Shown here: in pieces, positions 12,232 to 62,896 of the stretch
How the letters are laid out: each line of letters starts with the position of its first letter
Numbering within the stretch: the first letter of the stretch is position 1
Assembly (NCBI GenBank): GCA_027486555.1
Contig: JAIXOX010000140.1
Location: 1-64,000 of the forward strand
Reading direction: 5' to 3'
Source of the DNA: Comamonadaceae bacterium
Lineage (GTDB): Bacteria; Pseudomonadota; Gammaproteobacteria; Burkholderiales; Burkholderiaceae_C
Length of the DNA: 64,000 bases
Notes under the pieces: model-generated
Database searches by the model: none
The model's input: the letters and a program-made list of their open reading frames with translations, nothing else
Told to the model about the DNA's origin: nothing
Translations under genes and position numbers: made by a program

Positions 12232-12240
12232 TCGGCTTCT

Positions 12241-12315
12241 TGTAGGAGCCCACCCCGTGGGCGATGGTTTCAAGGGCGTGTGCCACGCCCATCGCCCACG
12301 GGGTGGGCTCCTACA
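12241..12315. repeat. REP-like perfect hairpin, GTAGGAGC family
   Basis: 27-bp arms (12241-12267 and 12289-12315) are perfectly complementary and begin TGTAGGAGCCCACCCC. The 21-nt loop carries a smaller stem, GGCGTG/CACGCC. It sits between the convergent ends of dctM and rhlE and may serve both as transcript-end protector or terminator. A left-truncated relative is at 42852-42907. Confidence 0.8.
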
Positions 12316-12343
12316 AAGATACAGACAACAGCATGCGGTCTGG

Positions 12344-52999: not shown

Positions 53000-53064
53000 T
53001 GTGGGAGCGGCGCCCTCGCCGCGATGAGCCCTCTGATATTTGCGTCGAGGGCGTCGCTCCTACA
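53000..53064. repeat. REP-like hairpin between fdsB and fdsA
   Basis: TGTGGGAGCGGCGCCCTCG (53000-53018) pairs with CGAGGGCGTCGCTCCTACA (53046-53064) with a few mismatches. The element fills nearly the whole 82-bp gap and ends only a few bases before the fdsA ribosome site, so it could affect fdsA translation or relative transcript levels. Confidence 0.7.
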
Positions 53065-54850: not shown

Positions 54851-54926
54851 ATGTCGGGACTGAAGCCACCGACCTACAAAAGTCAAGTGCGCTGATTTGT
54901 AGGTCGACGGCTTCAGCCCCGACATG
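54851..54926. repeat. REP-like hairpin, ATGTCGGG-CTGAAGCC family
   Basis: Imperfectly complementary arms contain ATGTCGGG, CTGAAGCC and CGACCTACAAA on the left and their reverse on the right (TTTGTAGGTCG, GGCTTCAG, CCCGACAT). The loop is about 15 nt. It separates boxA's end from the formate dehydrogenase start and is a different family from the GTAGGAGC hairpins. Confidence 0.7.
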
Positions 54927-54954: not shown

Positions 54955-56268
54955 TCAATAAGTTTCCAGGTGCAAACGGCCTTCTTTCTTGAGCGCGCCA
55001 CCGATGGCTTCCCAGTCCAGACCGGCGTTTTGCGCGATGTCGCGCAAGGCCATGACCACGCCCTCTTCCATGCTTTTCAAGCCACAGACATAAAAGCAGG
55101 TGTTCGGGTCTTTGAGTTGCAGCGCGATGTCGGCGGCGCGCTCGCGCAGCGCGTCTTGCACATAACGCTTGGGCTTGCCCACTTCGCGCGAGAAAGCGAA
55201 CTCGGTGTCGATGAAGTCTTTGGGCAAGTTGTTGAGCGGCCCAAAGTACGGCAACTCTGCAGGAGTGCGGGCACCGAAGAACAGCATCAATTTGCCACCT
55301 TCAAATTTACCGCTGGCCCTCAGGCGGCGACGCCATTCGGTCATGGCGCGCATGGGGGCAGAACCCGTACCCGTGCAGATCATGACAATGTTGCTCTTGG
55401 GGTGGTTGGGCATCAAGAAGCTCGCGCCAAACGGACCGATGACCTGCACTTTGTCGCCAACCAACAGGTCGCACATGAAGTTGGAGGCCACACCACGCAC
55501 AGCTTGGCCGTCGTGGTCTTCGAGCACGCGCTTGATGGTGAGCGACACGTTGTTGTGGCCTGGGCGCTCGCCATTGCGGGGGCTGGCTATGGAGTACTGG
55601 CGCGCATGGTGCGGTTTGCCATTGGCGTCCAGGCCGGGCGGGATGATGCCAATCGACTGGCCTTCGAGCACCGGAAATGGCAAGTTGCCGAAGTCGAGCA
55701 CGATATGGTGCGTGTCGTAGTCTTGCTGACCCTCTAGCAAACCTACTTCGGTGACACGCAGATTGCCTGTCACGCTGGCAGTGATGGTTTTGTCTTGCGC
55801 CTTGGGGCCGTAGAGGTTGGTGTAGGCGTGGGCCGCTGACCAAGGAGGGATGGTCGCGCCGAATTGCGCCGAGTTGAAGCCCGAAGCCGCGGCGGTGCTG
55901 ACGGCCGAAGCCGAGGACGCTGCAGCCGATTGCAGTGCGGTTTGCGCTTCTTCTTGTGCAGTGTCTGCGACACCACCCGCAGCAGCCAACTCTTGAGCAC
56001 TCAGTTCTGGGGGCAGGTCGTACCACTTGAGTTGTTCTTCGATGGTGTAGGCCTTGGCCTTGGGCACCATGCGCCAGTTGTCGATGGAGCCGGTGGGGCA
56101 TGGCGAGATGCAATCCATGCAACCGTTGCAGATGTCGGCCTTGACCACGTAGTTGAGCGAGTCGTGCGTGATCGCGCCCACCGGGCAGATCGCTTCGCAG
56201 GTGTTGCAGCGGATGCAGATTTCCGGGTCGATCAGGTGTTGTTTGATCAGCGTCGCTTCGGTGCTCAT
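54955..56268 (-). CDS. boxA: Benzoyl-CoA 2,3-epoxidase reductase subunit
   Basis: This 437-residue iron-sulfur flavoprotein passes NADPH electrons to BoxB. N-terminal motifs [12 protein letters not shown] and [12 protein letters not shown] bind two [4Fe-4S] clusters. An Ala/Ser-rich linker (about residues 95-130) follows, then an FNR-type reductase with [12 protein letters not shown] (FAD), [12 protein letters not shown] (NADPH) and a C-terminal LHLETY. The ATG at 56268 is the family start; the frame stays open upstream only through repeats. Confidence 0.92.
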
Positions 56269-56309
56269 GTCTTGGCTCTCTTGTGTTTTGGCGTTTTCTG
56301 TCTGTGGTG

Positions 56310-56380
56310 TGCGTGGTCCGCAGCGGCACGGTTTGAGTATGCGTGGTCCGCAACGGTATCTTGGGTCTGCGTGGTCCGCA
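56310..56380. repeat. Three copies of a 13-bp near-palindrome
   Basis: TGCGTGGTCCGCA occurs at 56310-56322, 56340-56352 and 56368-56380 (periods 30 and 28). Each is followed by (A/G)CGG(C/T)A. The last copy runs directly into the stem of the hairpin at 56381, whose first bases repeat the sequence after copy 2. The units lie 42-120 bp upstream of boxA. Confidence 0.75.
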
Positions 56381-56452
56381 ACGGTATGGCTGGGGGCCGG
56401 GCACCTCATACTGGGGTACCAGAAATCGGTGCCCGGCCCCCAGCCATACCGT
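56381..56452. repeat. Core-bearing hairpin 1
   Basis: A perfect 25-bp stem (56381-56405 with 56428-56452) encloses a 22-nt loop that reads, on the minus strand, GATTT-CTGG-TACC-CCAG-TATGA. CTGG/CCAG form an inner stem. The core differs at one position from hairpin 3. Confidence 0.85.
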
Positions 56453-56512
56453 CGCTCAGTGCCTGCTTCAACGCCCTGAGTCTAAGGGACCCTGATCGCT
56501 CAGCACACCCAT

Positions 56513-56590
56513 GTCATTGAAAGGGCGAGGGGCGGGTGACGATTTTCGGTACCCCGGTATGAGGAACCCGCCCCTTGCCCTTTCAATGAC
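56513..56590. repeat. Core-bearing hairpin 2
   Basis: A 25-bp stem with one G-T wobble (56513-56537 with 56566-56590; outer part GTCATTGAAAGGGC) encloses a 28-nt core at 56538-56565. Its inner stem is TCGG/CCGG around TACC, a compensatory change relative to the CTGG/CCAG of the other two copies. Confidence 0.85.
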
Positions 56591-56671
56591 CGCCTCACTG
56601 CAAGGCAGTACCTTCAAACCACTGGCAAACCAGTCGTCCTGTGACGTTAAGGACACAGAACCAACCCCATG

Positions 56672-56747
56672 CAGTTGACAGAGGAAGAGGCGGGTGACGA
56701 TTTCTGGTACCCCAGCATGAGGAACCCGCCCCTTCCTCTGTCAACTG
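56672..56747. repeat. Core-bearing hairpin 3
   Basis: A 24-bp stem with one A-C mismatch (outer CAGTTGACAGAGGAAG 56672-56687, inner GGCGGGT 56689-56695) closes on a 28-nt core at 56696-56723. Core and inner stem part match hairpin 2; the outer 16 bp do not. Its right end overlaps the small boxB-proximal hairpin by four bases. Confidence 0.85.
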
Positions 56748-56791
56748 CTGCCCCCGAAACAACAGGGGCAGCAGTCAGATCAGATGATCAA

Positions 56792-58219
<1,428 letters not shown>

Positions 58220-58252
58220 CATGATCTCCTGGGGGGGTTAAATGGGTTTGGG

Positions 58253-62826: not shown

Positions 62827-62896
62827 TTGTAGGAGCCGCGCCCTCGCGGCGAAAATCCCCAGCAGGCTCATCGCCGCGAGGGCGCGACTCCTACAA
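62827..62896. repeat. REP-like hairpin between boxD and bclA
   Basis: 26-bp arms (62827-62852 and 62871-62896) beginning TTGTAGGAGCCGCGCCC are complementary with a single mismatch; the loop is 18 nt. Same GTAGGAGC family as the element at 12241, but inside an operon, 55 bp before bclA. Confidence 0.8.

Follow-up and report, generated by a model that had tools for sequence, protein, structure and literature searches.

A dispersed palindromic repeat of Comamonadaceae, with a near-fixed tip on freely varying paired stems, lies between boxB and boxA

Three long hairpins with a common tip stand between two genes of benzoate degradation, boxB and boxA, in a box operon of the Comamonadaceae. We examined them in a window of 64,000 nucleotides (the whole stretch of DNA that was analysed; Table 1), using the boxB and boxA ORFs, under the names given to them in the first sequence reading, as anchors for comparing the gap between species. 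An earlier note made from the same sequence had described three hairpins with unrelated outer stems around a shared inner part. It had offered two explanations, a new core-centred palindromic element or a regulatory RNA array between boxB and boxA.

Table 1 Features of the boxB–boxA interval, in window coordinates.
Feature	Position	Strand	Description
h1 hairpin	56378..56455	tip on -	stem, tip ACCGATTT-CTGG-TACC-CCAG-TATGAGGT
h2 hairpin	56513..56590	+	25-bp stem, tip GACGATTT-TCGG-TACC-CCGG-TATGAGGA
h3 hairpin	56671..56748	+	25-bp stem (one pair A-C on the tip strand), tip GACGATTT-CTGG-TACC-CCAG-CATGAGGA
h1-h2 linker	56456..56512	none	
h2-h3 spacer	56591..56670	none	
boxB	56792..58222	-	ORF; upstream gene of the operon, 3' end faces h3
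boxA	54955..56268	-	ORF; downstream gene of the operon, start (MSTEATL, 437 aa) faces h1

All three hairpins and their shared tip were recovered. Folded as RNA, the tip strands of h1, h2 and h3 reach -73.5, -58.3 and -54.7 kcal/mol, and none of 200 dinucleotide shuffles was as good in any case (z of -13.2, -10.1 and -10.5). The complement strands gave -69.5, -51.3 and -57.8 kcal/mol, and for h3 of the window it is thus the complement that folds better. The reported 19–21 of 22 identities across the inner part hold once h1 is reverse-complemented; as read they do not, the tip of h1 being in the opposite orientation. The outer stems are unrelated between h1 and the other two, and a repeat search gave h1 no comparable relation to h2 or h3 outside the inner part, but h2 and h3 themselves are 81% identical over 79 nt. 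From this identity, one of the two seems to be a local duplication of the other that has since diverged. By eye, the h1-h3 linker of two-hairpin species likewise ends in ..CAT before the stem, as the h1-h2 linker does here, and no spacer like the h2-h3 spacer was seen in two-hairpin gaps of about 300 nt. Other repeats lie close by in the window: a direct repeat around TGCGTGGTCCGCARCGG, in three copies, adjoins h1 (56301-56389), and another long imperfect hairpin, without the tip, lies just past the boxA 3' end (54851-54925). Further long hairpins of another type, also without the tip and with TTGTAGGAGC..GCTCCTACAA-like feet that have a GTAG-type REP look, were seen at 12240-12316, 53000-53064 and 62827-62896.

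Searches beyond the operon placed the hairpins in a dispersed family, found in Limnohabitans and other bacteria of lakes. The source genome holds further copies on quite different stems, and a covariance model, which the earlier note had proposed, returned 10 matches there and 16–26 in each of five relatives (one of the 16 in G033 being an antisense duplicate). With up to 2 mismatches, the tip pattern matched 36 of 60 genomes: 35 of the 36 that share the genus of the source (the source among them), and 1 of the 24 that belong to other families. In the wider family, with 1 mismatch, matches came from 27 of 299 genomes, in 17 of 141 genera. When named genomes were scanned, at least 119 stretches with the tip were obtained, and among the matches listed nearly all come from Limnohabitans, Rhodoferax, Polaromonas, Comamonas or unnamed Comamonadaceae, Burkholderiales and Betaproteobacteria. 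Four assemblies with odd names also carry the element (L062, L077, L113 and L049: two Akkermansia contigs, one Singulisphaera and one Cryomorphaceae); of these, the Akkermansia-labelled contig L077 is probably mis-binned, since it bears a Limnohabitans-like box operon. The exact tip pattern had no match in viral contigs. The core-centred element proposed in the earlier note was therefore supported, in that the tip recurs in the source genome and in related genera on differing stems that change by compensation. Under ordinary local duplication, which the note had set against it, the outer stems would be shared by every homologous box operon and the tip would be absent elsewhere; box-locus stems differ between species, and other copies exist.

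The conserved letters of the tip, CGATTT and ATGAGG, are mostly unpaired or mispaired; they flank a small variable stem capped by a TACY loop. The pairing scheme on the tip strand would run C-G, tandem G.A/A.G, T.T, T-A and T.Y. The flanking GA..A is present in 150 of 192 hairpins, and the minority replacements are mostly letters that pair (this set took G-T as pairs for inclusion and was superseded by a 184-hairpin set). The inner-stem change seen in h2 is real, and several inner-stem variants occur across the family (CTGG/CCAG, GTGG/CCAC, GCGG/CCGC, CGGG/CCCG and TCGG variants). In the lower stem, the 5' side is G-rich.

The hairpins are also arranged in a regular way. Across six genomes, 24 of 26 neighbours less than 300 nt apart are (-)(+), and the other two are (++), in each case h2 and h3 of a box locus; clusters of this kind take in 50 of 104 hairpins, the others being solo (positions from covariance-model matches, with the antisense duplicate of G033 left out). 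Whole units are repeated within genomes, with four in 6 kb of G001 and four in 10 kb of G020, and two G001 units are 99% alike over 222 bp with different flanks. G127 has 61 tips, mostly in pairs 155 nt apart; by eye, the middle part of its linker occurs in both orientations and its copies have short common ends, TACG..CGTA. A second dispersed repeat adjoins several G127 units and is also found alone (L198 1330-1400). Copies within single genomes share their ends too, and to call the family the reverse of REP or MITE repeats, as the earlier note did, was thus too strong. An empty-site search for target duplication found sites, none of them clean enough to name one; for G127, the genus searched comprised that genome alone.

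To describe the stems, we kept 182 hairpins in which 22 or more of the 24 stem positions pair (G-T included), of which 57 were non-redundant, and aligned 36 of these 57, picked by eye. All 24 outer stem pairs have changed on both sides in the alignment, and 98.1% of its cells are paired against 39–50% in slid controls, a value that is partly by construction as the hairpins were pre-selected for pairing. A check free of such selection came from exact tip matches taken without any stem requirement. Among 136 distinct matches (5 edge-cut ones left out, and some loci represented by more than one related species), 132 sit on a stem with 20/24 pairs or more and 71 have 24/24, compared with 0 of 136 reaching 20/24 when the right arm was shuffled.

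The imperfect pairs that remain follow one strand. In 184 hairpins with at least 17 Watson–Crick pairs of 24, the tip strand carries 257 G-T/T-G against 30 A-C/C-A pairs, and 65 non-redundant hairpins gave 86:16 (binomial P about 9e-13, with cells treated as independent). The ratio is 67:6 where neighbour genes run with the tip strand and 96:10 where they run against it. At the box locus, distinct site/type events, counted without a tree, stand at 17:3 for h1, 6:0 for h2 and 7:2 for h3 (30:5 in total); this count covers near-canonical-tip hairpins, leaves out three h3 rows with arms out of register or with N, and follows a naming rule under which an h2 can be labelled h3 if the tip of the last hairpin is altered. 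In the uvrA hairpins described below, the bias is weak, with distinct events of 4:2 and 5:3. Since h1 and h2/h3 are biased on opposite strands within 400 bp, neither replication nor transcription strand bias can explain the pattern. The excess of G-T over A-C on the tip strand, whichever way neighbour genes run and also at the box locus, points to selection, acting in place, on a single folded strand, which on our reading is the one bearing the tip.

The orthologous box locus is itself variable. In 53 distinct boxB–boxA gaps, a pattern search found 17 (-)(+)(+) arrangements, 15 (-)(+), 4 single hairpins and 17 gaps with none, and 3 of 67 box loci had no boxA anchor. These classes have soft edges: 4 of the 15 pair gaps have triple length (453–468 nt), so that triples are undercounted, and five loci counted as core-free (L364, L370, L372, L373 and L376) fold as long hairpins with altered tips. 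Nine of the 17 gaps without a hairpin are 13–32 nt long. By eye, one locus retains only the outer arms of h1 and h3 (L365), another has apparently lost h3 cleanly (L367) and a third has kept the h3 arms with a different tip (L370). A regulatory RNA array between boxB and boxA, the other explanation in the earlier note, is not supported as an array specific to box, given the 17 of 53 gaps without a hairpin by pattern search, an h1 that faces the opposite way, and stem wobble that tracks, in h2 and h3, the strand lying antisense to box mRNA.

Searches for known features did not class the hairpins. Scans for intrinsic terminators and promoters across 56260-56830 gave 0 sites. Rfam searches of five loci yielded no hairpin match, just two tRNAs, and across 55800-57300 of the window all 38 matches fell under the gathering score, most of them to microRNA models. 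Orientation gave no general rule either. For replication strand, as we read hairpin positions against the skew, the tip lies on the G-poor strand in 11 of 12 solo hairpins of G143 and on the G-rich strand in 9 of 13 in G006 and 5 of 8 in G033 (2 opposite, 1 at the switch); we dropped this reading because the three genomes have no rule in common. An element read in the mRNA sense was likewise rejected, the strand preference relative to neighbour genes being too weak.

The reading that we favour, at roughly even odds (about 0.5), is a REP/BIME-like non-autonomous repeat that is read at its tip in folded single-stranded form and whose old copies selection has retained. It draws on the observed dispersal, unit architecture, covariation and strand-specific mismatch pattern at a fixed locus. 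On this view the box hairpins are long-standing copies of a palindromic repeat, non-autonomous and dispersed among Comamonadaceae. The canonical unit of about 200–240 bp consists of two hairpins with tips on opposite strands, (-)(+), plus a linker, with singles occurring too. Each hairpin joins a stem at least about 24 bp long, free in sequence but kept paired, to a nearly fixed tip, and the active form would be a folded single strand carrying GACGATTT..TACY..ATGAGGA. A putative trans-acting factor would read the tip and may have driven past spread in the manner of REP/BIME, with settling near gene ends. Fixed copies such as those of the box operon may then have been retained by selection for the fold, presumably to the benefit of the host, and could partly separate boxB from boxA mRNA. 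Selection in place at a fixed locus is more than a purely selfish element would account for.

The main rival holds that these are RNA-only 3'-end or insulator elements, which near the ends of genes would stop 3' exonucleases or transcription in antisense. The (-)(+) order would suit such a role, since the last hairpin on a transcript is in tip sense from whichever side transcription comes. Solo hairpins lie at a median of 42–56 nt from the stop codon in '++', '--' and '+-' contexts (raw distances, no random baseline), one of them downstream of a gene that we take to be ybeY; of the 184 hairpins, 164 have calls for both neighbours, and 13 of these lie in divergent contexts (raw counts); solo hairpins in '--' outnumber those in '++' by 34:18. 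The tip strand also folds better in 54 of 57 hairpins with RNA parameters, compared with 41 of 57 with DNA parameters, in a set that leans towards the tip strand because G-T was counted as a pair when it was chosen. Against this, a U-tract just after the 24-bp arm occurs, among 183 hairpins, in 1 on the tip strand and in 5 on the complement (a count that would misjudge longer stems), the scanned box interval has no terminator-like site, and the tip strands of h2 and h3 are antisense to the box mRNA.

Copies within uvrA coding sequence speak against RNA 3'-end elements as well. A double-length UvrA frame of the source genome (2149 aa; L384 2201-8650, G000:C142) contains four in-frame tip hairpins encoding SSYGGGTPKSSP or GDDFGVPPPHEEP, and the corresponding frame of G033 (2123 aa) has four hairpins inside. 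By our reading of the sequence, these sit in linkers between conserved parts of UvrA, and the same linker in other species has one hairpin, both or neither. uvrA is the one within-gene case among the loci read. Weighing these lines of evidence, we regard the RNA 3'-end reading as possible but unlikely.

Hairpin units also lie between accessory gene blocks. Beside tRNA-Ser in the LimB clade, G006 has one unit followed downstream by oxidoreductase genes, and G001 has four units with three accessory blocks between them (a metallo-beta-lactamase-fold protein; a TacA-like antitoxin with a GNAT protein; and a photolyase-like protein). Homology between the two genomes breaks and resumes at unit ends, and G393 and G375 carry other block combinations. 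Accessory gene arrays with hairpin units between blocks were seen in L168, L169 and L382, with tRNA-Ser adjoining in the first two. One could see in this a new class of structure-read element, with a fixed tip and a sequence-free stem, that serves both as mobile repeat and as joint for accessory-block gain and loss, with neither attC boxes nor a known enzyme; we consider this improbable.

Another reading, in which the hairpins are single-stranded DNA recombination sites whose folded strand is recognised by a recombinase that gains and loses gene blocks, as with integron attC sites, seems to us slightly less probable still. The block combinations at tRNA-Ser, the breaks of homology at unit ends and the apparent clean loss of h3 in L367 are in its favour. 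However, the attC boxes RYYYAAC and GTTRRRY occur at hairpin feet in 0 of 183 cases (shuffled mean 0.04, so that the test shows absence only), and homologous recombination between units of about 222 bp would be sufficient for the same block junctions. The hairpin loci read in the source genome sit between or within housekeeping-like genes, and tRNA genes are known island sites anyway. Finally, a reading without function, in which template-switch repair (quasipalindrome correction, which yields perfect palindromes without selection) keeps the palindromes perfect and the tip is merely inherited, would accommodate the hairpins that seem to have collapsed (L365), but it was already disfavoured and is likewise improbable, since it gives no reason to expect an excess of G-T over A-C on a single strand, opposite biases of h1 and h2/h3 within 400 bp, or a tip that stays nearly fixed across genera while stems change.

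For the favoured REP/BIME-like repeat, Y1 transposase was a candidate enzyme. Genes of this family (PF01797) are present in 39 of 40 Limnohabitans genomes, one to four each, and the tip pattern was absent within about 1.5 kb of the 10 Y1 loci inspected (L177-L186). A different repeat flanks the enzyme, GGGGTCAGA/TCTGACCCC, which lies beside 8 of 10 Y1 genes (on both sides in 7, on one side in 1), and Y1 transposase was rejected as the enzyme of the tip repeat. Palindromes with GGGGTCAGA ends enclose the tip in some genomes and lack it in others.

Bacterial palindromic repeats known so far are mostly defined by conserved ends or by their whole sequence. For the tip family, selection appears to act on a single strand in its folded form, with the tip fixed, as indicated by compensatory change and by a strand-specific mismatch pattern at an orthologous locus. 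The family thus offers a testable case of structure recognition in place. Its covariance model (R1) is a search model for a family that was not matched in the Rfam scans run, natural stem variants make a set for finding a protein or RNA partner, and the uvrA insertions and gene-block arrays tie the repeat to gene and genome remodelling.

How does the family compare with known systems? Integron attC sites are recognised by structure as one folded strand, have variable arms and have gene blocks between them; the tip family lacks attC boxes, and its conserved part is the tip. Palindromic elements of Rickettsia, repeats of about 150 bp (PMC10969869), resemble it in occurring in frame within ORFs, here uvrA, but belong to another lineage and were set against the tip repeat by description, not sequence. 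A literature search by topic gave no description of the tip element among the matches listed, the closest among these being the Beta-proteobacterial repeat element (BRE), and a search for BRE by name led to PMC3110155 alone. BRE measure about 75–91 bp in Bordetella, occur also in Polaromonas, Rhodoferax and other Betaproteobacteria, and are intergenic and sometimes coding (PMC3110155). The genera overlap with ours and the placement is alike, but BRE are described as conserved in sequence and in places tandem; on that description the tip family would differ from them.

REP/BIME elements come nearest in layout. As described (PMC3733652; for TnpA-REP, PMC6006769), they are GTAG- and CGTC-tagged palindromes with stems of 5–13 bp and a tag conserved at one end, present in many intergenic copies, often as inverted dimers, and G-T stem pairs are noted there too. 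The tip family shows the BIME-like arrangement of inverted dimers (24/26) but departs from REP in two defining features, a flanked transposase and a foot tag: within 12 nt 5' of the 24-bp arm, GTAG was found in 3, GTGG in 1 and CGTC in 13 of 183 hairpins, counted without a shuffle control. Its hairpins instead have stems of about 24 bp or more, a variable foot and a conserved tip.
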